Positions 3,997-57,831 of a stretch of DNA of 64,000 nucleotides are shown here, in pieces (the stretch's first letter is position 1; each line of letters starts with the position of its first letter). Location of the stretch: positions 124,001 through 188,000 of the IMG/VR virus record IMGVR_UViG_3300017971_000001. One strand, written 5' to 3'. Under the pieces are notes generated by a model. The model had not been told where the DNA came from. It saw only the letters and a list, made by a program, of their open reading frames with translations, and searched no databases. Position numbers and translations under genes: made by a program. The DNA is from a virus.

Positions 3997-4068
3997 AGCG
4001 GGCGGCGGGGATCGAACCCGCGACGAACGGGTTGGAAACCCGACGCTCTACCGCTGAGCTACGCCCGC
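3997..4068 (-). tRNA. tRNA-Gly (anticodon TCC)
   Basis: A canonical 72-nt cloverleaf: 7-bp acceptor GCGGGCG/CGCCCGC, D-arm TAGCTCAGCGGTAGAGC, anticodon loop TTTCCAA giving TCC, T-arm with GGTTCGATCC. CCA is not encoded. It sits between the tmRNA and a terminator, probably on one transcript, and unlike the cluster at 61 kb it has no structural defect. Confidence 0.95.
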
Positions 4069-4148
4069 GTTTTCAGCTGCGACACCCCACCCTCCGTGCC
4101 GCCTCACCCCGTGTCGACGAGGTCCCTGTATCTACCACTCCTGGTCAA

Positions 4149-4557
4149 TGGAGGTGCCGGGAGTCGAACCCGGGTCCGCGATAGCCTCCGACCGCGCGCT
4201 CTACGTGTGTATCCGTCTGTTTGATTTCGCTGCCCGAGCTCGAAACGGCACGATCTCGGTCAGCTATCCGTCGATTTTGCTTCGGATCGAGCTAGGCGGA
4301 CTCGCTCGAATTCCTAGTCCGTCTTTTGGCCCCGGACCCCTTCCTCACGGACGGGATGTCAGGCCGGGGTGGTCGAGCTAAGCGACCAGGGCGGGCTTGG
4401 CGGCGCCGTCGATCCACGCGTGGATCTGGGCGTCGGTCAGGCCCTGCTCGTTGCTGTTGGCAAATGAGCTTTTTGATCGGCTTTTAACGCAGCCAACCGA
4501 TCAACTGCGACACGCACGCACGACTTCGTCTAGCACGTCGAAACCAAGGTCACCCCC
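4149..4557 (-). ncRNA. ssrA: Transfer-messenger RNA (tmRNA)
   Basis: 409 nt. The 5' end GGGGGTGACCTTGGTTTCGA and the 3' end GGTTCGACTCCCGGCACCTCCA match the conserved tRNA-like domain; GGGGGTG pairs with CACCTCC (one G-U), and the T-arm is typical. Between them lies a resume codon GCC at 4461-4459 and a tag frame ending at a TAG. tmRNA rescues stalled ribosomes by trans-translation with SmpB, which is not seen in this window. CCA is not encoded. Confidence 0.95.
4378..4461 (-). other. tmRNA tag peptide reading frame
   Basis: 27 sense codons followed by TAG. The peptide starts ANSNEQG, has TDAQIHAW in the middle and ends KPALVA. The hydrophobic end (ALVA) fits the ClpXP/ClpAP degron of ssrA tags, while the length is far above the roughly 10 residues of most bacterial tags. 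The frame is inferred from the alanine resume codon and the stop. Confidence 0.85.
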
Positions 4558-19400: not shown

Positions 19401-22400
19401 CTAGATCCGCTCCTCTTCGTCCCACTCGAGCGAATCAAGCAGGCTCTCTTTCTCGCGCAACGTGTCGAGAACCAGCTTGTCGACAACGTGCTTCGCGACG
19501 AAGCGCACAATCAAGATCGAGTCGTGCCCCTCGGCGCCAATGCGGATCAGGCGACTCTCGGCCTGCTGGTTCTTGGCGGGGTTCCAGCTGAGATCGATAA
19601 AGCCGGCGACCTTGGCGCGGGTGAGCGTGATCCCCTCACCGCCGGCACCGATCGAGACCGCGAGCCCGCGCTCGATCTCGCCGGACTGGAAGGCCTCAAC
19701 GATCTTCTGCCGCTTCTTGGCGGCGACGCCGCCGTGGAACACGTCCCAACCCGGCCGCCCGTCGAGGTAGCTCTCGCCTGCGAGCTTCTTGAGGATCGAG
19801 ACGTGCTGGGAGAAGAGGACGACCGGCTCGTTCTCCTCCTCGCACTCTTCGATCCAGGCCTTGACCGCGGCGAACTTCGCCTGACTCAGCATGGACCGAA
19901 TTCGGCTGAGCTCGTCGATTGTCGGCATTTGCGTGCGGCTGAGCAGGGCCTCCTGCACGGCCTCGAGGATCTCTTCGTCCTTGTTCCAGGGCCGCTCCTG
20001 GAAGTAGTACTCGACCCGCTCGTCGTAGATCAGACGGCGGCGATCGCGCTCGTCCGGGCTGAGGTGGGGCTCGAAGGGGCTGAGGATCTTATGGGGGCCA
20101 CTGTCTGCGGTGACGTCCTGCCACGACCGCTTGACCGCGAGCATGTGGTGGACAGCCTCTTCGACCTCCCGGCGCGTCTTGTCATTGATCTCGACCTCAA
20201 TGATCTTCTCGACACGCGGAGGCAGCTGCGAGAGGACGTCCTTGCGGCGACGGTTGATCTGCACTCGGCGCAGACGAGCGTGAAGCTCGTCACGAAGTTC
20301 GGCCGTCGGAGGCCGGCGACTCCCCTTCGGGTTCTCATACCAGTGCCGGAAGATTCGGAAGTAGTTGTCCCAGCTGCCGAATGCCGCCCGCTCGAGCCCG
20401 AGCGACTTCAGCACCTCCCAGAACTCGCTCGGCTTGCCCTCGCACGGCGTGCCCGAGAGCCCGTAGACGAAGCCGTTCATGGCCCAGACGCGATCGCGCA
20501 TGGCGCGCCAGCGCTGCGTGCGGAAACTGCTCGGGTTCTTGAACGCGTGGCATTCGTCAGCCAGCAGAACCATGGGCCCGGTGATCTCGGGGTAAGGGTT
20601 GGCCTGGTGGCAGGTGCGATCGATCGGCTCGCCGTGCTTGTCGTGCCCGCAGATCTTGACGGGGTCCGGATCGTCCACCCACTCTTCGTACTTTCCGCCG
20701 TAGTGATACGGGATCACGCGACGGCGCCCGTCGACGACGAGCTCGAACGTGCGCGGGTGCTGAAAGTCTATGTGCGTGTGCTCGCAGCGCGGCAGGATCA
20801 GATTCCCAATCCGGCGCTCTTTGCGCAGATACCTCAGCAGACCGCGGAGGCGCTTGCAGCCCTTGCAGGGCTCGCCCGGCAAGACGCCGAACGAAGCAAG
20901 CAGGACGTCGCCCGGGGAAAGCGCCTTGAACTTCAAGGCGTAGTTCTTCATGGACGTCGCCATTTTCGGGCGAAGGTCCGGGCGCCACTTCTTGATTTCC
21001 TTCTGCCAGTTGTAGCGGACCGAGCTCGGGCTGAAGACGAGGTTCGGCATGTCGCTGCGCAGGGCGCCGAAACTCGAGATCACGGTGTTGTGGCAGAGGA
21101 TCCCCTCGGCCACATAGTTGTGATCCCTCTCGATCTCGAGATCGTAGACCCAGTCGTCGTAGTCGACCTCTTCGACCGAGACGACGGTGGCGTAGTGGAC
21201 CTCCTGCTCGATCAACCGCCAGGCCCGGTCGCGCGTGACCCGAAGGTCGTCATAGTCAAGTCGACGGAGTGCCTCGTCGATCCTCTCGCGGCGATACTTC
21301 CCGGCGAGATACTCCTCGGCAGCCTGGCCACTCAGCATGTTGTCCATGGCTTCAACGACAACCGCAAGCGACTCGCGCGAAAACTCCTGCTTGCCCTTGA
21401 GGTAAACCGTCGAGAGCTTGTATTTCGGATCCAAGTGCCACCATGAGGCAGGGAGTCCCGCGCGATCGAAGGCGGCCCTTATCAGATCAGAGGCCGGGAG
21501 GCCTTCGGTGTTGCTGTTGACCTTCTTCGCGCAGGCCCTCTCCAACTGCTCAGTCTTGTAGCCAACGGAGAACCCAACCTCGTCTCGATATCGACGAAGA
21601 CTCGCTCCGCTGATCGTTCCTACCCAGTAGTCACGGTAGGGGCAGTTGGGGCTATTCGTTGCGCGGGCTCGCTTGCTGCGAACTCGCACCCAGATACCAA
21701 AGCGACGGAAGAGGTGGACGAGCTCCTTGACGAGCAGCTGACTCGCGCTCGAGAACTCAACAATGCTCCCCCTCTTGGGGCAGGATCCCTCCGCGTCCAT
21801 GTAGGCGCGCAGGAAGGTTCGAACGACCTCTGCATTTCCCTGCATGACCGGGAGCGGAACGCGGCGATCACGGGAGCGTGTGCCCCAGGGGTAGTCGAAG
21901 CGCAGCATGAATTCACGTAGGCCTGGATCAGAAACCAGGTCAAAAGCCAAGTGAGTGGCACGCGGCTCGTTAATAGACGGCTCGAATCCAAGGCGGGCAA
22001 GAATGCCGGCCAGTCGTTCGCAAACCATTCGATCTTTCTGGGTAAAGACCGAGCGACCGGACTCCTCGCGCCCGTCGCCAATCAACCACCCCATGAGCTC
22101 TGCGAGCTCAAGGTCTAGATCGCCGCTCTCATGCAAGAGTCGGGCGGGAACGCAAATCCGGTCGCCAGGCCTGATCTCGTTCGTCCACACCTCAGGCCCG
22201 CGTAGCTTATGGGCCTTAGTGATCGTCGTCTCGCTGCCGTCATTCAGACGGACGCGGACGAGCTTCTCCCTGACCCTCTGGCGGTAGAGGCGCTTGACCG
22301 GGCGGCGAACGATCCTGCCCGTCGCGTCGTCGATCGAGTTGACGAAGAGAGGCTCGGTCGGTTCAGACCAATAACCCTCTCCGTCGAATTCAATGTTAGG

Positions 22401-22778
22401 ACTCGCGTATTCATTCCAGGTGAATTCTGCAGTCTGAAGCTCGCCGTTGATTTGAGCTAAGTCCTTATATGATCGACACTTGCCGCAGCCCATTTGATGC
22501 CCGACCAGTAATGCACGCGTATTGCTAATCCTGCGCGCGTCGGTCTCCTGGAACCCCATGAGCGAGAGGCCGAGGTCAGGCAACTCCCTGAGCCGGCGAT
22601 CAAAGCCGTTGTCGGTGATCCCGTCGACCATGACGCACAAGGCGCAGCACAGCCGTAGCGGCGCCTGGACGAACTCGCCCTCGCCGGGATTAAGCGCCAC
22701 GCCGCAGCGATAGCAGGTGCCCAGGTGCCGGTTGGGAAAGGGCTTGATTCGCTGGTGCAGTCGCTTCTTCTTGGCCAT
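19401..22778 (-). CDS. SNF2-type DNA helicase interrupted by an intein
   Basis: 1125 aa from ATG at 22778 (a TTG 9 nt upstream is an alternative). An N-terminal zinc ribbon (CYRCG ... LCCALC) precedes the Walker A site GHQMGCGK-T, which is split by a 464-residue intein. The extein continues with VFSPSSVRYNW, the DECH box LLADECHAFKNP, YGLSGTP and the helicase C-lobe ending GAGGEGITLTRA ... QAESRLIRIGAEG. This is a superfamily 2 SNF2-like ATPase of the kind used in phage replication or recombination. Two tiny genes follow it on the same transcript. Confidence 0.9.
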   Translation of the reverse strand: MAKKKRLHQRIKPFPNRHLGTCYRCGVALNPGEGEFVQAPLRLCCALCVMVDGITDNGFDRRLRELPDLGLSLMGFQETDARRISNTRALLVGHQMGCGKCRSYKDLAQINGELQTAEFTWNEYASPNIEFDGEGYWSEPTEPLFVNSIDDATGRIVRRPVKRLYRQRVREKLVRVRLNDGSETTITKAHKLRGPEVWTNEIRPGDRICVPARLLHESGDLDLELAELMGWLIGDGREESGRSVFTQKDRMVCERLAGILARLGFEPSINEPRATHLAFDLVSDPGLREFMLRFDYPWGTRSRDRRVPLPVMQGNAEVVRTFLRAYMDAEGSCPKRGSIVEFSSASQLLVKELVHLFRRFGIWVRVRSKRARATNSPNCPYRDYWVGTISGASLRRYRDEVGFSVGYKTEQLERACAKKVNSNTEGLPASDLIRAAFDRAGLPASWWHLDPKYKLSTVYLKGKQEFSRESLAVVVEAMDNMLSGQAAEEYLAGKYRRERIDEALRRLDYDDLRVTRDRAWRLIEQEVHYATVVSVEEVDYDDWVYDLEIERDHNYVAEGILCHNTVISSFGALRSDMPNLVFSPSSVRYNWQKEIKKWRPDLRPKMATSMKNYALKFKALSPGDVLLASFGVLPGEPCKGCKRLRGLLRYLRKERRIGNLILPRCEHTHIDFQHPRTFELVVDGRRRVIPYHYGGKYEEWVDDPDPVKICGHDKHGEPIDRTCHQANPYPEITGPMVLLADECHAFKNPSSFRTQRWRAMRDRVWAMNGFVYGLSGTPCEGKPSEFWEVLKSLGLERAAFGSWDNYFRIFRHWYENPKGSRRPPTAELRDELHARLRRVQINRRRKDVLSQLPPRVEKIIEVEINDKTRREVEEAVHHMLAVKRSWQDVTADSGPHKILSPFEPHLSPDERDRRRLIYDERVEYYFQERPWNKDEEILEAVQEALLSRTQMPTIDELSRIRSMLSQAKFAAVKAWIEECEEENEPVVLFSQHVSILKKLAGESYLDGRPGWDVFHGGVAAKKRQKIVEAFQSGEIERGLAVSIGAGGEGITLTRAKVAGFIDLSWNPAKNQQAESRLIRIGAEGHDSILIVRFVAKHVVDKLVLDTLREKESLLDSLEWDEEERI
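21087..22478 (-). other. Intein with LAGLIDADG endonuclease in helicase Walker A
   Basis: Runs from Cys (CRSYKDL) directly after GCGK to the terminal HN before Thr, 464 aa. Splicing blocks: TITKAH (block B), VYDLEIERDHNYVAEGILCHN-like end (blocks F and G). LAGLIDADG-type helices LAELMGWLIGDG and FLRAYMDAEGS indicate a homing endonuclease. Block A is atypical (CRSYKDL instead of C-L-x-x-D-T). Splicing restores GKT. Confidence 0.9.
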
Positions 22779-22831
22779 TTGGGCCAAGATACGAACGCCC
22801 TACGACGTCTAGCGGGCCAGAAGGCGCTCGA

Positions 22832-42985: not shown

Positions 42986-43257
42986 TGGACTTCCACCGCT
43001 CAGAGAGTTTACGCGAAGTCGTCGGACTCAAGGTGTATCGTCACCGCGTCGAGTGCGAGGAGTTCGGGCAACGCGAATTCACGTTCATGGTCAAGGACGG
43101 ACTCGTTCGCGTGATCGAGTCCTACGGGAACACGTCCCGGGAACTCGGCAGCAACATTCCCCTGGACGGCCTGATCGCCTGCGCGGTCAGCTGGCTCAGC
43201 GAACCCACGGCAAGCAGCAAGCATGAAGCCAACCGTCGAGCAGCAAGCGGTCATTGA
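42985..43257 (+). CDS. Small hypothetical protein
   Basis: 90 aa from GTG (TAGTG overlap); runs 35 nt into the helicase gene. VYRHRVECEEFGQREFTFMVKDGLVRVIE looks beta-rich. No family recognised. Confidence 0.55.
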   Translation: MDFHRSESLREVVGLKVYRHRVECEEFGQREFTFMVKDGLVRVIESYGNTSRELGSNIPLDGLIACAVSWLSEPTASSKHEANRRAASGH

Positions 43258-46200
43258 GCACGGCACGGGTCCGGCGCTCGTCCTCGCTGACGCCGGCAGC
43301 GGCAAGACGACCACGATCCTGCTGCGGATCAAGAACCTGATCCGGCGCGGCGTTCCTGCCAACCAGATCCTTATGATCACGTTCAGCCGCGCCGGCACCG
43401 AGGACATGATCCGCCGCGCCCGCGAATTGGGCGTCCCTCGAGGCGTGCAGTACCGAACGCTGCACAGCGTCGGTAAGGAAATGATCAAACGAGGATTCCC
43501 GCTGCAGGAGGAACGGACCTTCCGCTGGCCGCGCGAGGACTCGTCGGAAGACGAAGGCGGGAGCATGACTTTCTCGATCCCGACCGAGGGCGAGGAGGCG
43601 AAGAAGGAACCGGCCTTCGGTCAGCGGGTCGGGCGGAAGCAGTCGCTCGATATCGATATCGAAAAGCTCATGAAGGCCACGCTGCTCAACTACAAGGACG
43701 AGCTCGAAGCGAAAGGCCCCGTCAGCCGCGCGCACCTCGCCCCCAAGGTCAGTGAGGTCATGAAGCTGATCGACTTCAGCAAGTCCAATCTGATCTTTCC
43801 GGACCTGATCGACGAAACGACCGGCGAGCTCTTCTGCGAAGGGGCCTGGAGCAGCAGCGACGGAACGAAGTTCCCCTGTTTCATGGACTGGGCCTGGGAG
43901 AACCTGAGGATCTCTGAGGACGAGAACGAGCCCGGCCGGATCCCGGTCGTGATCGAGGCCGTGCAGCGCTGCTACATGAAGCTGCAAATGGCCTCGGCCT
44001 GCCCAGAGTATCACTCGTCGAACGAGTACTACGCTCTGCACGCCCACCGCTGGATCACGTTTTCCGACATGATCGCGCTGCCGGCGCAGGCGATCCTCAT
44101 GGGCCTTCCCTGGGTCTCGCCGTGGTGGGGCAGGTTCTCGTTCGTGATCGTGGACGAGGTCCAGGACAACAACCTTGGCCAATGGGCCATGGTCCGTCAC
44201 CTCGCCCGAGACAACAACCTCATGGCGGTCGGCGACGACTCGCAATCCATTTTCAGCTTCCGCGGCGCCCGGCCTGAACTCATGGGCTTCTTCAGGCAGG
44301 AGCTCATGAACTCGCAGGTCTACGGGCTCTCGGTGAACTTCAGGTGTCCGCACGAGGTCGTCAATCAGGCGAACAACCTGCTCAGCCACGCGCCGAACAA
44401 GCTAAAGGAAAAGCCCGCCCAGGCGCTCGAGTCTGCCTTGCCGGGACGGATCACGGTCACGTCTTACGCCGAACCCCTGAGGGAGGCGCGCGGCGTCGTC
44501 AAGAAGATCCAGGGCTATCAGGCGGCTGGGTTCCCCTCGCATGAGATCGCTGTGATCTACCGCACGCATGCCAGCGCTGGCGCGGTCGAGATCGAACTGA
44601 TCCGCAACCGAATCCCCTACCGCGTTCAGGGCTCTCCGTTCTTCAGCAAACCGATCGTCGCGGCCACGATCGGTTACCTCGGTCTCGCACTCGAACCCGG
44701 AGATCGGGAGTGGCTCAAGGCCTGCTACTGCAAGCCGCTGAGGAGTCTCAACCGAGCCTTCTTGAACACGTACGACAACTACGCTGCAGCGGTCAACGCC
44801 TTCGAGAACGACGAGGTCAAGCAGTGGCGCTGGAAGCGAGGTATTCCCAACCTTCGCAAGGCGGTCACCGAAACCCGGAAGGCGCTCAAGGAAAAGGGGG
44901 TGGGGGACGCGATCCGCCATGTGCTGTGGAAGCTTGAACTCGTCAAGTTCTTCGTCAATCGAGCCTCGGGCGACGGGAAGATCGAGATCGAGGACTACGC
45001 AAGAAACCTGGAGGACCTAGGGGATTGCTACGACAGCGCAGAGGATCTCCTGCGATACGTCCGGCTCATGCGCGACGACGATATCGCCGAGGCCGACCAC
45101 GACAACACCTACCTGAACAAGAAGTCCGCTCCGGGTCGCGTGGTGTTGAGCACCATTCACCGCTGCGTCCACCCGGACACTCTTATCGAAACAGGCGAGG
45201 GCCTGATTCCGATCAAGCTAGCCTCGAAATCCGGTCTTATCGGAACCCCGAAAGGGCCCCTCCGCTACAAAAACCTTGTTCGCAATCCGAGCAGAATTGG
45301 GATAAAGGTCACGACCGAAAGAGGGTACGAGCTCACCATGACGCCGGACCACGGAATCCAGGCATGGGGAGGAAATGGATACCGACGGCACCGCGCAGAC
45401 GAATTAAAGGAAGGCCAATTCGTTCGCTTGAAGCTGGGCGTGAATTGCCCTGCTGGAGAGGTTCCTAGCCTTCCAAGTCCAGGAGTCGGTGATATCCGTG
45501 AGCACGTCTGCAAAATTCCGCAGCGAATGAGCAGCGAGCTAGCTGAATTCCTGGGTTTGATAGTTGGCGACGGAACTTGCTACAAGCGAGGCGTCAGGCT
45601 GAAGAAGCGCCACGAAGAGGTTGTAAACCGCTTCTGCGCGCTAGGGAAATCGCTTTTTGGGCTAAACGCTATCCGAAAGAAAGAACAGGCGAAGAAGCCC
45701 GGCTACAACCTGACTGGAGAATTCGTCCACTACGCAGAAATCAACAGCACCAAGCTTTGCAGGTGGCTTGAAATCCTCGGAGGCACCTCCCCTCAGGAGA
45801 AGTCGATCCCCGAGTGCGTCCTGAGGAGCCCGGCAATCATTCAGGCCTCATTTCTCAGAGGACTGTTTGAAGACGGAACTGTAAATGTGAAAAAGGGGAA
45901 ACTCGATCATATCGACTGGTCCAACAAAAGCGAAGAAATGGCCAAGCAGGTTCAGGTCATGCTTCTGAGATTTGGGGTCGCCTGCAAGCGCAGGAGGGTC
46001 GAACACCAAGGAAGGAATAATACGCACATTTACATTTACGGAGAATTTGCCTCCAAGTTCGGAAGGTCGATCGGAATGATCAGCAAGGTCAAACAAGACC
46101 GCCTTTCGTGCGCCCCTGGCCGCCAAATGTATCCGGTCCCTATAGCCAAAAACGAACTTCGCTTCCTGAGGAACCAGGACAGAGCAAACGCCAGCCACAG

Positions 46201-46627
46201 AGGGAGGGTAAGCCGTTGGAAAGCAGCCCTCGTCCCCGATTTGATCGGGAAGCTGGGTTTCTTTCACGACCCGATTAAGAGTATTGAAATCGTAGAGTGC
46301 GAGTCCATGTGCGTCGAGGTTCCTGAAATGGGGAGGTTCCTTCAGAACGGATTCGACGGGCATAATTGCAAAGGCCTAGAGTACGGAACCGTTTTTTTGA
46401 TTCGGGCGAACGAGGGGGTCGTTCCGCACCGCCTGGCGGACCTGTCCGAAGAGCGCCGCCTGTTCTACGTCGCGGTCACCCGGACCAAATCGACCTGCGA
46501 GATCAGCTACGTGCAGGAGACCACCTTAGGCCCGGCGTTCCAGAGCCAGTTCATTCAGGAGCTCAAGCAGCGAAAGGAGGTGCGGATTGGACGAAAAGCT
46601 GACGAAAGCTTGGCGAGCTTGGCGTAG
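43223..46627 (+). CDS. UvrD/Rep-type superfamily 1 helicase interrupted by an intein
   Basis: 1134 aa. Walker A LADAGSGKTTT, MITFSRAGTEDM (motif Ia), IVDEVQDNN (II), GDDSQSIFSFRG (III), VNFRCPHEV (IV), and after the intein CKGLEYGTVFLI (V) and FYVAVTRTKS (VI). Motif V, TIHR-CKGLE, is split by a 401-residue intein. A 3'-5' SF1A helicase for replication or repair. The 2A-type insert between motifs Ia and II is long. The ribosome binding site of the next gene lies inside its 3' end. Confidence 0.92.
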   Translation: MKPTVEQQAVIEHGTGPALVLADAGSGKTTTILLRIKNLIRRGVPANQILMITFSRAGTEDMIRRARELGVPRGVQYRTLHSVGKEMIKRGFPLQEERTFRWPREDSSEDEGGSMTFSIPTEGEEAKKEPAFGQRVGRKQSLDIDIEKLMKATLLNYKDELEAKGPVSRAHLAPKVSEVMKLIDFSKSNLIFPDLIDETTGELFCEGAWSSSDGTKFPCFMDWAWENLRISEDENEPGRIPVVIEAVQRCYMKLQMASACPEYHSSNEYYALHAHRWITFSDMIALPAQAILMGLPWVSPWWGRFSFVIVDEVQDNNLGQWAMVRHLARDNNLMAVGDDSQSIFSFRGARPELMGFFRQELMNSQVYGLSVNFRCPHEVVNQANNLLSHAPNKLKEKPAQALESALPGRITVTSYAEPLREARGVVKKIQGYQAAGFPSHEIAVIYRTHASAGAVEIELIRNRIPYRVQGSPFFSKPIVAATIGYLGLALEPGDREWLKACYCKPLRSLNRAFLNTYDNYAAAVNAFENDEVKQWRWKRGIPNLRKAVTETRKALKEKGVGDAIRHVLWKLELVKFFVNRASGDGKIEIEDYARNLEDLGDCYDSAEDLLRYVRLMRDDDIAEADHDNTYLNKKSAPGRVVLSTIHRCVHPDTLIETGEGLIPIKLASKSGLIGTPKGPLRYKNLVRNPSRIGIKVTTERGYELTMTPDHGIQAWGGNGYRRHRADELKEGQFVRLKLGVNCPAGEVPSLPSPGVGDIREHVCKIPQRMSSELAEFLGLIVGDGTCYKRGVRLKKRHEEVVNRFCALGKSLFGLNAIRKKEQAKKPGYNLTGEFVHYAEINSTKLCRWLEILGGTSPQEKSIPECVLRSPAIIQASFLRGLFEDGTVNVKKGKLDHIDWSNKSEEMAKQVQVMLLRFGVACKRRRVEHQGRNNTHIYIYGEFASKFGRSIGMISKVKQDRLSCAPGRQMYPVPIAKNELRFLRNQDRANASHRGRVSRWKAALVPDLIGKLGFFHDPIKSIEIVECESMCVEVPEMGRFLQNGFDGHNCKGLEYGTVFLIRANEGVVPHRLADLSEERRLFYVAVTRTKSTCEISYVQETTLGPAFQSQFIQELKQRKEVRIGRKADESLASLA
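45164..46366 (+). other. Intein with LAGLIDADG endonuclease in helicase motif V
   Basis: From Cys648 (CVHPDTLIETGEG, a classic block A) to HN1048, followed by extein Cys1049. Block B is LTMTPDHGI; block G is the NGFDGHN end. SSELAEFLGLIVGDGT and FLRGLFEDGTV are the two LAGLIDADG helices. Its DNA looks richer in A and T than the extein on both sides, which fits recent acquisition. Confidence 0.92.
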
Positions 46628-48078: not shown

Positions 48079-48254
48079 ACTGGCTCCTCGCGTTTGGGGT
48101 CTACTACCTCACCTTCCTCCTCCTGATCTTCTCTGCGCGCTGGGCTGCTGAAGAGGACGCGAAGAAGCGGCGGGAGACGTGGCTCCTCTGCACCGGCGGC
48201 GCGGTCGTGGCCTTCTACCTGGTCGTCAAAGCCCTAACGAAAAGACAAGCATGA
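48075..48254 (+). CDS. Small two-helix membrane protein (59 aa)
   Basis: GTG (GTGA overlap) to TGA overlapping the next ATG. Two hydrophobic helices (WLLAFGVYYLTFLLLIF and TWLLCTGGAVVAFYLVV) are joined by a charged loop (AEEDAKKRRE). Holin-like topology with only this evidence; there is no lysis gene next to it. Confidence 0.6.
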   Translation: MNWLLAFGVYYLTFLLLIFSARWAAEEDAKKRRETWLLCTGGAVVAFYLVVKALTKRQA

Positions 48255-49006
48255 AGACCCACGCTCGCCTCAACGAAGACGCCAAGATCACCTTCTGCGG
48301 ACGAGAAATCGGAAGGAAGTTCCAAGGCGCCGCCGAGTCCACGCACGATCTCTGCGGATACCTCAAACTCCCGGTCGAAGAAGTGTGCGGAAACTGCCGG
48401 CCGAAGGTCGTCGTCTGGAACGACAGGGGGTACGTGCCCATGCCGGACGGAAAGCAGCAGCCGACGATCACGACGGTCTCCGGGATCCGGTTCACGCCCT
48501 TCGACCCCCAGTTGGACCAGATCAACATTCGCGATATCGCGACGGCGCTGAGTCACCTCTGTCGCTGGTCGGGCCACGTTGAGCGCTTTATATCGGTTGG
48601 AGAGCACTCGATCTGGGTCTGCAAGCTGATCGAAGAGCAAGGCCACGGTACCCGGGCCGCGCTCACGGGGCTGCTCCACGACGCCAGCGAGGCCTACCTG
48701 GCCGACCTGCCACGTCCGATCAAGTACCACAAGGGCCTCAAGGCCTACCGGACCACGGAAGACCGGATCCACGCGGCGATCGCGCGCAAGTACGACCTCG
48801 AGTGGCCCCACCCGCCCGAGGTCAAGGCGGCTGACAACAGCCTGTTGATCACGGAGGCCGTGACCCTCAAGGGGTTGGATCTTTCGATCGAGGGTTCCTC
48901 TTGTATCCCCTGGATTCAAGCTCACCTCAACGCACCGGCCCCTTCGTTCAGCGCCGTTCAAGAGGATTTCATTCAGCACTTCCGCAGGCTGAGGAACATG
49001 CTGTGA
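48251..49006 (+). CDS. HD-domain phosphohydrolase (YfbR-like)
   Basis: 251 aa. CGNC near residue 50 may bind metal. SVGEHSIWV ... TGLLHDASEAYLADLPRPIKY is the HD motif in the arrangement of YfbR/nucleotidase-type proteins that act on nucleotides. Probably part of phage nucleotide metabolism; substrate unknown. Confidence 0.8.
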   Translation: MKTHARLNEDAKITFCGREIGRKFQGAAESTHDLCGYLKLPVEEVCGNCRPKVVVWNDRGYVPMPDGKQQPTITTVSGIRFTPFDPQLDQINIRDIATALSHLCRWSGHVERFISVGEHSIWVCKLIEEQGHGTRAALTGLLHDASEAYLADLPRPIKYHKGLKAYRTTEDRIHAAIARKYDLEWPHPPEVKAADNSLLITEAVTLKGLDLSIEGSSCIPWIQAHLNAPAPSFSAVQEDFIQHFRRLRNML

Positions 49007-49704: not shown

Positions 49705-50447
49705 TCGGTGAGTTCGTCCGCGCCGTACTTTCGACGAAGAACGACAAGATCGTCTTCCGGGATCTGTGTTCGACCTGCGACGACTTTCGCGCCCACCGAC
49801 TCGGAGGCAAGCCTGGATCGGCGCTGGGTATCTGCCTGCGCTGCAAGGGCGAGACTCCGTGCAGCACTCGCAGGATCGACGAGTCGAACGTAGGCAAGGC
49901 GAAAGCGTTCATGAAGCGTTGGAGCGACGCGACCGAAACGGCGAAGCGCAAGAAGGCCGCGATCGATTCGGCTCGCCCTTCCCCGCCTAGCGCCCGCGGC
50001 TCTTGGCCGCCCGCAAAGAAGAAGGCGAATTACGGAACGGAGGCGCGCAGAAGGGCCGCTGCGTCAGCCTACGACGCGCACCCTCCGAGGACCGTCGACT
50101 GCTCGTTCTGCGGCAAGGCCTTCGAAACCCGGCACCCCAAGAAGATCAACTGCTCGCGCAGTTGCACCGTGAAGCGGGCCAGCAAGAACCGAAAGGAGCG
50201 CAGAGGAAAGAAGGAGGCCGGCAACGAGGAGCGAATCGGCGTCACGGTCACCTTGAGCAAGCTCCCCTTTGCCAAGGGGGCAAACTACGGCACCCACAAA
50301 CTCGAGGAAGACTGCTCGAAAAAGAACGCCGAACTCCCCTGGCTTCTCTCGTGCCTCCAATGCGGGACCCTGAGCTACGCCAAGGGCCGAAACGTGATCG
50401 CCCGCCAAATTCCTGCCTGCACCTGCAACGAGAAGAGCGAAGCATGA
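49701..50447 (+). CDS. Zinc-finger protein with three cysteine pairs
   Basis: 248 aa. CSTCDDF ... CLRCKGE, CSFCGKAFETRHPKKINCSRSC and CLQCGTLSYA ... CTCNE. The middle motif (C-x2-C-x12-C-x3-C) resembles the MYM/HNH-neighbour zinc finger often seen in phage proteins. Basic and probably nucleic-acid binding. Confidence 0.7.
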   Translation: MIGEFVRAVLSTKNDKIVFRDLCSTCDDFRAHRLGGKPGSALGICLRCKGETPCSTRRIDESNVGKAKAFMKRWSDATETAKRKKAAIDSARPSPPSARGSWPPAKKKANYGTEARRRAAASAYDAHPPRTVDCSFCGKAFETRHPKKINCSRSCTVKRASKNRKERRGKKEAGNEERIGVTVTLSKLPFAKGANYGTHKLEEDCSKKNAELPWLLSCLQCGTLSYAKGRNVIARQIPACTCNEKSEA

Positions 50448-51190
50448 ACCGGACCCTGGACGCGCGCCCGGACGAAGCGGACTTCCGCGACTTCAAGTAT
50501 GAGCCCGGCTTGATCAACGTCTACCCGGAGATCCCGATCCGCTCATGGGAGCGACGCGGGATTGAAGTCCTGGATCAGGGCAGTGAAGGCGCCTGCACGG
50601 GCTTTGCGCTGGCGACGGTGGCGCACTACCTGTTGCGCACCCGAGCCGGGACGCTGCCGGACGACACGCCGATCAGCGCGCGGGCGTTCTACGAGAACGC
50701 TAAGGATTTCGACGCCTGGCCGGGCGACGAATACGACTGGAGTTCGTGCCGAGGCGCGGTCAAGGGCTGGTATCACCGCGGCGCTTGTTCGCGGCGCGTG
50801 TGGCCCAACAACGCCAAAGGAGAAAGCATGACGCCGGCTCGTGCGGCCGACGCCGCCAGGCGACCCCTGGGCAGCTACTACCGAGTCAACAGCAAGAACC
50901 TGAACCACATGTTCGCGGCGCTGAGCGAGGTCGGCGTGCTCTACGCCTCGGCGTGGCTGCACCCCGGCTGGAACGATCCGGGCGCCATAATCGAGGACGA
51001 CTCCATGCACGAGCGCAGCGGAGGGCACGCCTTCGCGATCGTGGGCTACGACGCGGACGGCCTCTGGATCCAGAACAGCTGGGGCAAGGACTGGGGCCGC
51101 GGCGGCTGTGCGCAGATCGGATACAGCGACTGGCTCGCCAACGGGAAAGACGTCTGGGCCCTGCGGCTCGGCGTTACGGTGAACGTGTGA
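50444..51190 (+). CDS. Papain-like cysteine peptidase (C1A)
   Basis: 248 aa from ATG. DQGSEGACTGFALATVAHYL holds the oxyanion Gln and catalytic Cys; SGGHAFAIVGYDADG the catalytic His; WIQNSWGKDWGRGG the Asn of the triad. No signal peptide. The first 35 residues (RDFKYEPG) resemble a short pro-region. Peptidase targets in phages of this kind are unknown; it could process virion or host proteins. Confidence 0.88.
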   Translation: MNRTLDARPDEADFRDFKYEPGLINVYPEIPIRSWERRGIEVLDQGSEGACTGFALATVAHYLLRTRAGTLPDDTPISARAFYENAKDFDAWPGDEYDWSSCRGAVKGWYHRGACSRRVWPNNAKGESMTPARAADAARRPLGSYYRVNSKNLNHMFAALSEVGVLYASAWLHPGWNDPGAIIEDDSMHERSGGHAFAIVGYDADGLWIQNSWGKDWGRGGCAQIGYSDWLANGKDVWALRLGVTVNV

Positions 51191-52674: not shown

Positions 52675-53496
52675 CTACCAAGGCCCCGATCGCTTCTTCC
52701 CGTGGACCCAAAGGCCGCCCCCGCCAATTCGGGCGAGCTCCTTGAGCTTCTCCCGGTGGTAGTCGCCAGCCCCCCAGACCATGAAGTTCACGGGCGGGAG
52801 CTTCTTCTCCTTGCGCCAGGCCAAGCCCTTCTTGTAGGCCTCTTCGGCCTCCTTGACGTTGACGTCGCCGTCCGTCACCAGGGCGACGGTCAAGCGATCA
52901 CACGGATCGCGCATGGCGACCCGGATCGCTCGAGCGAGATCCGTGCTCCCGTCGGCCGAGCAGGTCAGCAGGTATCGCATGAGCGAAGGGTAGTGGCTCG
53001 GCATGGACGCCCAGCCCTGGCGGACGCAATGGTCGCCGCACTTCTCCTTGGGATCGTGCTTGTGCTCGGGCTTGCCCTTCCAGCGGATCGCGTACGCGCT
53101 GTAGGTGATCAGACCCGCCTGGAATCCGTCCACGGGAGACATGAGGATCAACTGCACCGAGGCGACAGCCTGCTGGAGCAAGCCCTCCATGCTGCCGGAA
53201 GTGTCGACCACGAAGATCACGCGATCGGTCAGGCGGAAGCTCTTCTTCGCGCGCACGAGCTCGAGCGGCATGACGCTCGGCGGGGGAGGGATCTCGATCT
53301 TCTTCCTCGGTTTGGGGAGAGCCTCCTCGAACCATTCCTCCTCGAAGACATGCGGGACCGGCATGGGCGGCGGCGTGATCTTCGGCTTCGGCTGAACGAC
53401 CGGGGGCTGGGTCGGCTTGACGTTGCCCTGGGGCTTCTGCTGCGCGAGCGCAGGCGCGGCAACGAGGAGGAGAAGGGGCAGGATCAAACGCCTCAT
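52675..53496 (-). CDS. Secreted VWA-domain protein
   Basis: 273 aa from ATG. Signal peptide MRRLILPLLLLVAAPALAQQ, a Pro-rich linker (PTQPPVVQPKPKITPPPMP), then a von Willebrand A domain with the MIDAS motif DTSGSM in RVIFVVDTSGSMEG and ALVTDGDVNV. Leftward within a rightward region and so independently expressed. VWA domains bind proteins through a metal ion; an envelope or adhesion role is a guess. Confidence 0.8.
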   Translation of the reverse strand: MRRLILPLLLLVAAPALAQQKPQGNVKPTQPPVVQPKPKITPPPMPVPHVFEEEWFEEALPKPRKKIEIPPPPSVMPLELVRAKKSFRLTDRVIFVVDTSGSMEGLLQQAVASVQLILMSPVDGFQAGLITYSAYAIRWKGKPEHKHDPKEKCGDHCVRQGWASMPSHYPSLMRYLLTCSADGSTDLARAIRVAMRDPCDRLTVALVTDGDVNVKEAEEAYKKGLAWRKEKKLPPVNFMVWGAGDYHREKLKELARIGGGGLWVHGKKRSGPW

Positions 53497-53556
53497 AAGC
53501 TAGAGCTCCATACCTCCAGCCTAGCAGCGTGCCGCGGTTCCGTCTGGAAACACGAA

Positions 53557-53930
53557 GAGCCAGGGGGTGACCCTGGCTCCTCGCGTCGCTTATACAGCCT
53601 CTGCGCAAGTAGGGACTCGGCGCAGAAGACGCACTTGAAAGTGCGACTCCGGACATTGGCTGTTGCTTCTACGCTACCTCAGGACTTGGGGCCTGCAACT
53701 CGCCCAGTCGGTGGACAGGCCGGCTGGCTGTGGTGTAGAACGGAAGGTCCGTGCAGTCGCACTTCGAACTGCACTCGAACGAGGAGATCGATCACCCGTA
53801 CATGCCAACGCCTCGCAGAGCCAACTGCGAGGCGTCGTGAGTCAGAGCAACAGCTAAGACTAAGGGTCACCAACGCCCTGAATGTAGCTCGTTGCTCTGA
53901 CTCCTGGCAAGTCCAACTTGTCTGGGAGAG
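53557..53930. ncRNA. Highly structured non-coding region, candidate structured RNA
   Basis: Between the divergent VWA and zinc-ribbon genes lie about nine inverted repeats: 53557-53565/53571-53579 (9 bp), 53600-53606/53620-53626 (7), 53630-53635/53640-53645 (6), 53667-53672/53735-53740 (6), 53690-53695/53716-53721 (6), 53740-53744/53748-53752 (5), 53751-53757/53768-53774 (7), 53808-53818/53825-53835 (11) and 53840-53851/53891-53902 (12). They are mostly nested or side by side. No known RNA family is recognised. It could be a leader, an attenuator or an independent RNA; direction not settled. Confidence 0.6.
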
Positions 53931-53932
53931 TC

Positions 53933-54532
53933 ATGGAAGCCGAGTACGGCAGTAGTAAACACTTGGGACGCAATAACTTGCCTGTTCCCGAGTTTTCCGA
54001 AAAAAAGTTTCAAGAACCTCCAGGGAAGGTCGGAAAACCTCCCGAAAGGCCGCGCATGGACTCCGAATGGTACGAATTTCAACGACCCGGCTTCAGCAAT
54101 AAGAACGCGAAGCGAAGGAAGAAGGCCTGGAGAAAGCGCGCTGAGAGGCTCATGGAACACTTCGGACGGGGCGTGGAACCGGGCTGGACGATCTGCTCCA
54201 AGTGCAAAGGTGTGGGAGTCCTTCCTGACGATCTCAACTTCGACAAGCACGGCCTGAGTCTGAAGGAATCTCGATCGATTGCGGATTCAATCTTCGAGCG
54301 AGAGAAAGAGGAAATGGACAAGAGTCTGAGTAAGGAGGAGCAGAAAAGGCTCGAGCTTTCGTTCGGACCGACTTCAGGTGATTTCGTCGTCTGCCCGGAG
54401 TGCAAAAAGCTTCTCGTTTGCATTTTCGAAGAGCTCCGCGACGGCGCCTGGGCCGGCGAGAGCATTGAATTCAACTTTGCTGACGGAAAGACCTACCAAC
54501 AATCCACGTTCACTCGAGAGACGACCTCATGA
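53933..54532 (+). CDS. Zinc-ribbon protein before the primase
   Basis: 199 aa from ATG at 53933 with GGGAG 5-6 nt upstream. Basic N-terminal half, then ICSKCKGVGVLPDD and VCPECKKLLVC, a four-cysteine zinc ribbon, separated by an acidic helix. Its ATG is right after the structured region, so that region may regulate it. Confidence 0.7.
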   Translation: MEAEYGSSKHLGRNNLPVPEFSEKKFQEPPGKVGKPPERPRMDSEWYEFQRPGFSNKNAKRRKKAWRKRAERLMEHFGRGVEPGWTICSKCKGVGVLPDDLNFDKHGLSLKESRSIADSIFEREKEEMDKSLSKEEQKRLELSFGPTSGDFVVCPECKKLLVCIFEELRDGAWAGESIEFNFADGKTYQQSTFTRETTS

Positions 54533-57500
54533 GCAACACCGAAGAGAAAAGCGATAGCTGGTCGTACTGGCACCTCCCCTTCCCCCAGCAGGTCCCGCTG
54601 CTCACGCGGCAGGGGCTGTTCCACTACGGGCCGCGCAACGAGCCGGCGCCGCTGCGTCAGCTGTTCAAGCGGGCGCAGGCCCAGGCAATCCGCCTGTTCG
54701 ACAACGGGGTCTACGCGGTCCCGCGGGTGCTCGTCACCCGCAAGAAGGGGCAGCTGGACAAGCACGTGCTTAAGCAGAAGGTGCCGTACAAGAAGCGCGC
54801 GCGCTCCTGCGGGCACCCGCACTGCCGCGCTGGTGTCGACGGCGAAGGTAAGCACGTCCCGGCTCCGGAGCAGCACGCTGCCTTTGTCCGGAAGGACACC
54901 TTCCTGCGCTCCGTGCGGGTCGGCATGCCCCGCAAGGAAGCCTTGCTCGAGGCCTCGCTCGCGGCGACCGACTGCCTCCGGCGTCACCAGGACCAGCAGG
55001 GAACGCGACAGTCCTGGTACGACCACGTCCGCGGCTTCGCCAAGGGCTGGGGCTGGGAGGAGGGCCAGAGCCCCAAGCGGGGCGAAGGGCGGAGTGGGTG
55101 GTGGGAATACCACCGCGGTGCTTACTCGTACTCGCTCTACGGCGAGCGGCGGTTCGAAGTCAACTTCTTCGGAATCGACCACGACGGTGGCGTCTGGAAG
55201 AAAGGCAAGGTTAACACCGAGATCGTCAAGACCCCCGAGGAAGACCGGCGCGCGCTGGCTCAGTTCTTTCAGAGCCACGGACTGCGTGGCTACTTCGCCA
55301 ACACTTCGCACAGCGGCGGGCTCCTGCGCGACAAGGGGATCGGCGTCCACGATCGCTGCTTGATCGACGGCGGACTCCCGTCATGGTTTGCGCACAAGCT
55401 CGGCAAGGAGATCACTCGCCACGTTCTGCGCGATCGCCCCTACGTCGACGACATTGAGGTGTTCCCCAAGAGCCACGAGTTCAGCGACAACTGGGCGATC
55501 GACAGGAAGACGGCCAAGGTCAAGGCCCCTTCCGGCGACAGTCACCTCCTCAACGCGCCGCTCGCCGCTCACCTGCACCACCTCGGCAAGGCGAGCCTGA
55601 TTGACCCCTCGACCGGGCGCCCCTTCGTCTACTACGACGACTCGGTCGCCTACGCCGAATCCATTCAGGGCGACTCGGTCGAGAAGCTGTGCATGATCGC
55701 GAACATGCTCGGCTTCGATATCAACGACCCCTGGAACGCGCTCAAGGACGAGCCGAACGTCGATCTCGAGCGACTGTGGGAGACGCGACCCGTTCACGAG
55801 ATCCAGGGCAAGGAGAACCCTTACCTGGGATCGCGGCTGAAGCAGAAGACGCTGACCGTGCCCCTCAAGGGGGAGAAGCGCAGCGGTCAGAAGCGCGTGA
55901 TCGACATGGGGCAGGAGGACCCGCTCGCCCAGGCGCTCCACGAAGCCGGCGTCGACGCCCTCGAGGTCTGCAAGGCGGCGGGAACCGAGCTCAAGAAGGT
56001 CGGCGAGCGCTGGACGGGCTGCTGCCCGGTCCACAAGGGCACCAACCCGACCCAGTTCAACGTGTTTCCGGCGCGAGACGGCGTGCTCGCCGCCAAGTGC
56101 CTGAGTCCGGACTGCGCGGACGAGCACCCCCACGGCTGGAAGAACCCGATCGCGTTGCACCAGGCGGTCCACGGCTGCTCGTGGGGCGAGTCGCGCGACG
56201 CGGTCGCGGCCATGGCGGGAATCGAGAACCCCCGCGACGAGAAGTGGCAGCGGAAGAGTCGCTTCCAGGAGAAGTACGCCAGCCAGTGGAAGAACGTCTA
56301 CGAGTGGGTCGGCAAGCGGGTCGGTGAACTGCCGCGCGGCAAGTACCACAAGTTCCTGCAGGCCATGGTCAACGCGCTCGACCGACTCAACCAAGAGGAG
56401 CAGGTAATCGACCCCGAGGAGATCGCGGTTTCGATCTTTCACCACGACACCCAGCTGCTCGACGTCAAGGCCTTCTTCGACGAGACGGTCCTTCCGACGC
56501 TCAAGAAGCTGGACAAGCAGCGAGAGGACCGCAAGAAGGGCCTCAGCAAGAGCAGCGGCGTATCGGGGATCGGTTACCTGCGCCGGGAGTTCGGCGCCGT
56601 CTGCATGAACGAACTGGTGAGCGCGATCATGGCCGACACCCAGTTCAAGCTCGAGTGGGGCCGCGTCGGCCGGGCGATCACCGGCTGCGCGCCGCTCAAG
56701 TACGACCGAAAGGGCCAAGACCTCGTCTGGGACATGCACAACGACGCCAGGCACCGCGAAGAGGACCTGCTGAACTTCACGACGGTCCCGACCTCGGACC
56801 AGGCGAAACCGCTGGACGACGTCCAGATCGAGGAGCTCCAGGAGATCGTCAAGATCGATCGATATATCAGCAGGCAGGCAGGGCGCCTCGTCGGCTGCTC
56901 GATCACCAAGGAAGAGGCCTGGAACGATCTCACGGGCAAGAAGCTCTGGAGCACCTGGAAGCGCTGCGGGTCGCGCCATTGCACCAAGTGCGGCCTGCTG
57001 CACTACTCGACCATGTACAAGGCCTTGATCCGCAAGTGGCAATACCACAAGGGCCCGATCTGGGTCGCGGAGACCCGGGGCCTGACTCGAGCCCAGGTCG
57101 ACGAGGCCCGCGCCGGGCTCAGCGACATGGGCAGCATTGCCCAGCGCGTCATGTTCACGGGCTACAGGGAGGACGGGCACGTCGTCACGACCTACTCGGC
57201 CACCCAGGATCAGGCGGGATTCTGCGCCTCGGGCAAGGTGGTCGGCGGCGTAGACCGCGACCAGGAGTTCGAGTTCAAGTTCGACACGATCGAGGAAGCT
57301 GCAGCCCACGCGGTCTCTTCCATGTTCGGCCTGACGGCTTACGTCTCTGATCTGATCAAGGGCCAGGACGTCCAGGAGCTCGAGGCCGAGCTCGGGTTCC
57401 TCAAGCACCGGCGTCTGGTCGGCAAGACCCGCGAGTCCCTTGGAGGCGCGACGGTCGAGGACGTCAAGGCGATCCGCAAGGAAGAGGTCGAGGCGCTGCA

Positions 57501-57831
57501 CGAAGGCGACGGGGTCGACGAGAACGTCCTCGTCGGGGCGGGCAGCAAGGACAGCGACATGGCCGCGGCCGACGAGGAAGCCGCTGGGCTCCGACTCGAC
57601 CACGACGGCGACGTGTTCGAGATCGGCGCGCAGATCAGCTACCGGCTGATCACGCCGTTGGGCAACACGATCGCGGTCTCCGAACGGCCCTTTTCGATCG
57701 ATCGAGTCGTCAGTTTCATGCGCTTCAACCACGTCTTGAAGAACGACCTGGCGCTGCTCCGCGAGCAGGAAAACCAGGTCAGGAGCGCGGTCAACCAGAC
57801 CTTTAGCTGGTCTACGAAGGCGGCTGCCTAG
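54529..57831 (+). CDS. AEP-type primase-like replication protein
   Basis: 1100 aa, ATGA overlap with the gene before. NFFGIDHDGG (about 213-221) gives the hhhDxD motif of archaeo-eukaryotic primases; ANTSHSGGLLRDKGIGVH (about 257-274) the second motif, and YVDDIEVFPKSHEF (about 305-318) the third. GCCPVHKGTNPTQF ... KCLSPDC (498-529) is a CHC2-like zinc finger. The C-terminal 550 residues are uncharacterised, with CGSRHCTKCGLLHY near residue 815 as a second zinc motif. Probably the replicative primase. No helicase motif is present in it. Confidence 0.7.
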   Translation: MSNTEEKSDSWSYWHLPFPQQVPLLTRQGLFHYGPRNEPAPLRQLFKRAQAQAIRLFDNGVYAVPRVLVTRKKGQLDKHVLKQKVPYKKRARSCGHPHCRAGVDGEGKHVPAPEQHAAFVRKDTFLRSVRVGMPRKEALLEASLAATDCLRRHQDQQGTRQSWYDHVRGFAKGWGWEEGQSPKRGEGRSGWWEYHRGAYSYSLYGERRFEVNFFGIDHDGGVWKKGKVNTEIVKTPEEDRRALAQFFQSHGLRGYFANTSHSGGLLRDKGIGVHDRCLIDGGLPSWFAHKLGKEITRHVLRDRPYVDDIEVFPKSHEFSDNWAIDRKTAKVKAPSGDSHLLNAPLAAHLHHLGKASLIDPSTGRPFVYYDDSVAYAESIQGDSVEKLCMIANMLGFDINDPWNALKDEPNVDLERLWETRPVHEIQGKENPYLGSRLKQKTLTVPLKGEKRSGQKRVIDMGQEDPLAQALHEAGVDALEVCKAAGTELKKVGERWTGCCPVHKGTNPTQFNVFPARDGVLAAKCLSPDCADEHPHGWKNPIALHQAVHGCSWGESRDAVAAMAGIENPRDEKWQRKSRFQEKYASQWKNVYEWVGKRVGELPRGKYHKFLQAMVNALDRLNQEEQVIDPEEIAVSIFHHDTQLLDVKAFFDETVLPTLKKLDKQREDRKKGLSKSSGVSGIGYLRREFGAVCMNELVSAIMADTQFKLEWGRVGRAITGCAPLKYDRKGQDLVWDMHNDARHREEDLLNFTTVPTSDQAKPLDDVQIEELQEIVKIDRYISRQAGRLVGCSITKEEAWNDLTGKKLWSTWKRCGSRHCTKCGLLHYSTMYKALIRKWQYHKGPIWVAETRGLTRAQVDEARAGLSDMGSIAQRVMFTGYREDGHVVTTYSATQDQAGFCASGKVVGGVDRDQEFEFKFDTIEEAAAHAVSSMFGLTAYVSDLIKGQDVQELEAELGFLKHRRLVGKTRESLGGATVEDVKAIRKEEVEALHEGDGVDENVLVGAGSKDSDMAAADEEAAGLRLDHDGDVFEIGAQISYRLITPLGNTIAVSERPFSIDRVVSFMRFNHVLKNDLALLREQENQVRSAVNQTFSWSTKAAA

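Follow-up and report, generated by a model that had tools for sequence, protein, structure and literature searches.

The gap and its genomic setting

The window analysed here comprises 64,000 bases and corresponds to positions 124001-188000 of the 245,276-base virus record IMGVR_UViG_3300017971_000001. This record represents a large and unusual phage with its own tRNA and tmRNA genes and with highly divergent proteins, many of the large ones having no PHROG or Pfam family match. Within the window, two divergent genes are separated by 436 bases (53497-53932), which reach up to both start codons. To the left lies a minus-strand gene (52675-53496) whose product, 273 aa long, gives a weak VWA-domain match and shows, by inspection, a signal-peptide-like start. 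To the right is a plus-strand gene without a family match (53933-54532), which begins at ATG 53933 or possibly at ATG 54057, the coding signal being weak over its first 41 codons, up to the second of these. It is followed by a primase-like gene (54529-57831, plus strand) whose 1100-aa product weakly matches the phage primase family phrog_6444 (E 4e-4). An exonuclease-like gene is also found near the gap, and the majority of the surrounding genes are oriented rightwards.

Several other features of this genome were recorded. The plus strand of the window carries a papain-family peptidase (50003-51190) and a protein whose motifs resemble those of an HD-type phosphohydrolase (48179-49006), segments of which are about 50% identical to proteins of small phages in IMG/VR. 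Both large helicases, one UvrD-like (43223-46627, plus strand) and one SNF2-like (19401-22787, minus strand), contain LAGLIDADG-domain insertions, and the SNF2-like helicase additionally matches an intein splicing domain. These insertions therefore look like inteins. The phage tmRNA (4146-4557), with the predicted tag ADQKAHLPTATSRA, adjoins a tRNA-Gly, and the pair spans positions 3997-4557 on the minus strand. Outside the window, at genome positions 113194-116071 (L007 13194-16071), there is a CRISPR array with roughly 11 copies of the repeat GTGGCAGGTAAATAGGCCCCTGCCAGGACTTGTTGC, with isolated degenerate copies of the repeat some 4.7 kb away (L007 18677-18735). The 707-aa protein beside the array matches Cas12m in the PDB (23vw_A, E 3.5e-43) and the PADLOC Cas12u1 model (E 3e-74); judged by sequence, array and protein are a phage-encoded type V-M-like CRISPR system. 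The array region had no match among 50,697 phage records.

Folding and architecture of the element

The initial annotation described positions 53557-53930 as a structured non-coding region between divergent genes, with nine inverted repeats at a density far above that of a usual divergent promoter region. We counted perfect Watson-Crick stems of at least 8 bp inside this interval and in 500 dinucleotide shuffles of it. Six stems reach 9 bp or more, against a mean of 0.30 in the shuffles, none of which (0/500) attains six; 2 stems reach 11 bp or more, against 0.01. The annotation had reported perfect stems of 11 and 12 bp, of which the former stands (53808-53818/53825-53835) but the latter is in fact 13 bp long (53839-53851/53891-53903). 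The remaining four are a local stem of 9 bp (53557-53565/53571-53579) and three long-range stems, one of 10 bp (53639-53648/53755-53764) and two of 9 bp (53566-53574/53863-53871 and 53659-53667/53846-53854). A count of nine inverted repeats is about right, as a mismatch-tolerant repeat search lists a similar number of inverted pairs. Comparison of the folding energy with shuffled sequence, a check that had been set beforehand, placed positions 53540-53935 far below the shuffles on both strands (-184.2 on the plus strand and -185.9 on the minus strand; z -6.7 on each, with 0/100 shuffles as low). With both stems and folding energy far beyond those of shuffled sequence, the description as a structured non-coding region is borne out. 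The interval first delimited is indeed structured, but the structure is wider and occupies the whole of 53497-53932.

The gap is also extreme within its own genome. Crude gene calls, which set the gap at 53497-53917, delimit 74 intergenic regions of 150-800 nt across the record, and among these it has the lowest folding z (-7.5 on the plus strand and -7.0 on the minus strand). Other divergent gaps in this comparison lie at about -3 to +2, which agrees with the density claimed at the outset, and the phage's tmRNA lies at about -2. When the whole record is divided into 1,622 windows of 200 nt, the region ranks fifth. The lowest z of the record belongs to the 200-nt window at genome position 110801, where a very stable terminator-like hairpin pair lies between convergent genes (about 110.8 kb; L007 10827-10977), and two other windows also have very low values (L011 751-950, at genome 228.8 kb, z -7.1; L009 17551-17750, at 205.6 kb, z -5.9). 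A blastn search of the genome against itself found the element in a single copy.

On the minus strand, the preferred RNA strand, the element is predicted to fold into two domains and a terminal hairpin. In domain I (53697-53932, 236 nt), positions 53906-53932 and 53697-53721 pair in a long-range closing helix (5+5+5+3 bp). The domain holds the longest hairpin (53839-53903), in which the 13 perfect pairs are supplemented by 5 bp of AGCUA/UAGCU, a 12-bp hairpin (53807-53836) with 11 perfect pairs, one G-U on this strand and a 6-nt loop, and smaller hairpins besides. Its folding z is nearly the same on the two strands (-6.9 minus, -6.8 plus). A 4-bp hairpin (53680-53695) is predicted between this domain and domain II (53523-53678, 156 nt), which is closed by 8 bp (53671-53678/53523-53530) and contains one branch bearing two hairpins together with a 17-bp hairpin (53549-53587) with the loop UCACC. 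The latter includes 3 G-U pairs on the minus strand and is interrupted by A.C mismatches on the plus strand. Domain II has a folding z of -6.8 on the minus strand versus -3.6 for the identical bases on the plus strand, where a shorter domain (53540-53656) gives -5.4. The last hairpin (53497-53522, 9 bp) abuts the VWA start codon. Its loop contains GGAG (53506-53509), located 9 nt upstream of the ATG.

Some of the long-range complementarities compete with these local structures. The 10-bp long-range stem is an alternative to two local hairpins and is a candidate switch, and a 12-nt complementarity (53656-53667/53846-53857, with one G-U on the plus strand) competes with the longest hairpin. Exchange between long-range helices and local hairpins could thus give the element two states. 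The 9-bp complementarity between 53566-53574 and 53863-53871 includes a candidate loop-loop contact of GGUGA (53566-53570) with UCACC (53867-53871), a five-base match to which a rough count over the loops gives no significance by itself.

Searches for known families and relatives

The element had no family match in an Rfam 15 covariance-model search (cmscan), either at gathering level or at E<=10. The families covered include tmRNA, RNase P, 6S and the group I and II introns, and the best hits were at chance level and far below gathering scores. At the DNA level, blastn against 50,697 phage records and 72,556 plasmids found no relative. Two hits from an exact 16-mer scan of IMG/VR were taken as chance, there being no further similarity to the element. 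Neighbouring proteins were also used as queries, namely the 204-aa protein, the primase, UvrD, the HD hydrolase and the VWA protein against IMG/VR, and the primase and VWA protein against GTDB. These searches gave only remote, non-syntenic hits and no relative with the same gene order; they start from exact peptide matches and may leave out records very near the window, so that relatives may exist beyond those reached. A covariance model of domain II, built from the single sequence, scored 192 bits against itself and at most 20 bits, at chance level, elsewhere over 0.49 Mb; in 13 further records it found nothing below E 0.1. A mobile element or MITE was considered and rejected, as the element is single-copy and reading of the sequence around the inverted pairs revealed no target-site duplication. 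We found nothing on point in the literature on large structured RNAs in huge phages.

Strand, transcription and possible function

An important question is on which strand such an RNA would be read. The question arises because the structure reaches a start codon with a Shine-Dalgarno sequence on both sides, at the VWA start as well as at ATG 53933. The minus-strand ensemble has an entropy of 0.41 compared with 1.00 +/- 0.24 in shuffles, none of 60 being as low, and its centroid lies within 3.2 kcal/mol of the MFE. The plus-strand value is 0.57, which 6 of 60 shuffles equal or undercut. Internal wobble pairs number 6 on the plus strand and 7 on the minus strand and favour neither; a strand call from G-U versus A-C mismatches was rejected because the counts are balanced. 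Overall, we consider the minus strand about twice as probable as the plus strand.

Neither flank of the element yielded a convincing sigma-70-type promoter. The sole sigma-70-like match on the minus strand (53910-53881) lies inside it, and a search for a phage promoter motif among overrepresented intergenic 8-mers gave no clear motif. The AT-rich minimum of the area (53960-54049, GC 43-47%) is a candidate promoter region to the right of the element, in the weakly coding stretch of the plus-strand gene, which suits leftward transcription. On the left, where the VWA gene begins, neither an AT-rich stretch nor a promoter was found. Terminators with a T tract are absent from both ends, which fits a leader better than a separate RNA, while the terminator-like hairpin pair at L007 10827-10977 suggests that this phage does use intrinsic terminators. 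A leader-peptide frame of 12 codons at ATG 53802 was rejected in view of its long spacing to the nearest GAGGAG and its position inside a perfect hairpin.

The gap is strongly structured, single-copy and non-coding; everything beyond this, including transcription, its strand, a switch and control of the VWA gene, we infer. A regulatory leader or an RNA gene is the likely explanation. We regard the element as a probable functional RNA that belongs to none of the known families. The initial annotation had raised three possibilities, a leader controlling the primase operon, an origin-like structure and an independent RNA. A leader is the best supported of the three, but the evidence leans to the leftward VWA gene and away from the rightward primase operon. 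We therefore tentatively favour, at somewhat short of an even chance, a selected structured RNA that forms a long 5' leader read leftwards on the minus strand into the VWA gene. Transcription would begin at a promoter within the AT-rich stretch or close to it, and about 436 nt of the transcript would make up the leader of this putatively secreted protein's gene. Both leader domains are predicted to fold stably, and the last hairpin would offer the Shine-Dalgarno sequence of the VWA gene in its loop, so that the leader would set the level of VWA translation. This reading follows from contiguity with the start codon, the last hairpin with its GGAG loop, the strand preference and the lack of a terminator at either end. 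It shares with structured 5' leaders such as riboswitches, protein-binding leaders and thermosensors a position directly upstream of a start codon, a hairpin in or beside which the Shine-Dalgarno sequence lies, helices that compete with one another and a fold well below shuffles. Unlike them, it is unusually long and matches no leader family described in Rfam. Other points weigh against it: no good minus-strand promoter lies upstream of 53932, domain I folds equally on both strands and the wobble pairs are neutral, the Shine-Dalgarno sequence and the family of the target gene are weak matches, and no relative, hence no covariation, was found. In addition, the promoter must overlap the first codons of the plus-strand gene, or that gene must start at 54057.

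The same structure could be read rightwards, as a plus-strand leader of the gene that precedes the primase-like one, with its Shine-Dalgarno sequence covered. The closing helix of domain I would then pair ACUCGCCCAG (53698-53707) with CUGGGAGAGU (53922-53931), covering the Shine-Dalgarno sequence of ATG 53933, and a competing fold of local stems would free it, so that translation could be switched. Two plus-strand folds of near-equal energy, one with this site covered and one with it free, are indeed predicted, domain I retains its z of -6.8 on this strand and most neighbouring genes run rightwards. We nonetheless consider a rightward leader unlikely, since many shuffles have an ensemble as well defined as that of the plus strand, domain II folds less strongly there and the left side of the element lacks a promoter or AT-rich stretch. 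A free RNA of about 390-440 nt, encoded by its own gene and akin to ROOL or GOLLD, is also unlikely. ROOL and GOLLD often lie near tRNA islands and form RNA-only multimers via kissing loops; to our knowledge, few large structured phage RNAs have been described, and the function of these two is still unknown. The element resembles them in being phage-encoded, several hundred nt long and predicted to have many branched helices and possible loop-loop contacts. Its size, compact two-domain fold and branched junctions, the repertoire of tRNAs and tmRNA in the same phage and the precedent of phages encoding such RNAs (PMC12286853) would all suit a free RNA, and the phage's own tmRNA provides a structured RNA of similar length. 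On the other hand, neither end has a terminator although an intrinsic-terminator-like hairpin pair occurs elsewhere in the genome, the nearest tRNA gene is about 7.7 kb off (61614), there is no Rfam match, and the element fills the entire gap between two start codons. It is also smaller than GOLLD RNAs, of which many are more than 800 nt long (PMC12286853), and ARAGORN does not call it as a tmRNA.

Two further explanations do not require an RNA function. Perfect palindromes that fold equally strongly on both strands, balanced wobble pairs and nearby primase-like and exonuclease-like genes would be consistent with a DNA-level element, either an origin for replication or single-strand initiation or a group of palindromes near the replication genes to which proteins bind. 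The origin-like structure first suggested is not upheld, as the region contains no DnaA-box-like match (the window has a single one, at 45886), no iterons and no GC-skew turning point (genome position 177,600), and neither a well-defined global fold nor long-range closing helices would be expected of separate binding sites. We regard a DNA-level element as quite improbable. A chance or neutral cluster of hairpins without common function, such as leftover terminators or degenerate repeats, appears more improbable still. In its favour, the searches found no relative in which the pairing is kept, and the terminator-like hairpin pair elsewhere likewise reaches a very low z in 200-nt windows. Against it stand the z values, which run from -6 to -7.5 across some 400 nt and are extreme for the 74 gaps, and the many different hairpins linked by long-range helices. 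The element is, moreover, single-copy, and divergent genes need no terminators here.

It is also possible, if doubtful, that this is a new class of large structured RNA of about 390-440 nt and two domains, belonging to a jumbo-phage lineage and acting as a free RNA or an elaborate translational switch, its domains possibly joined by the loop-loop contact. For the present it is an orphan element, whose coordinates, domain limits and helices allow it to be sought in future relatives. That the phage retains some 0.4 kb of non-coding sequence with such strong folding would point either to a further class of large RNA or to an elaborate leader that controls a putatively secreted phage protein.
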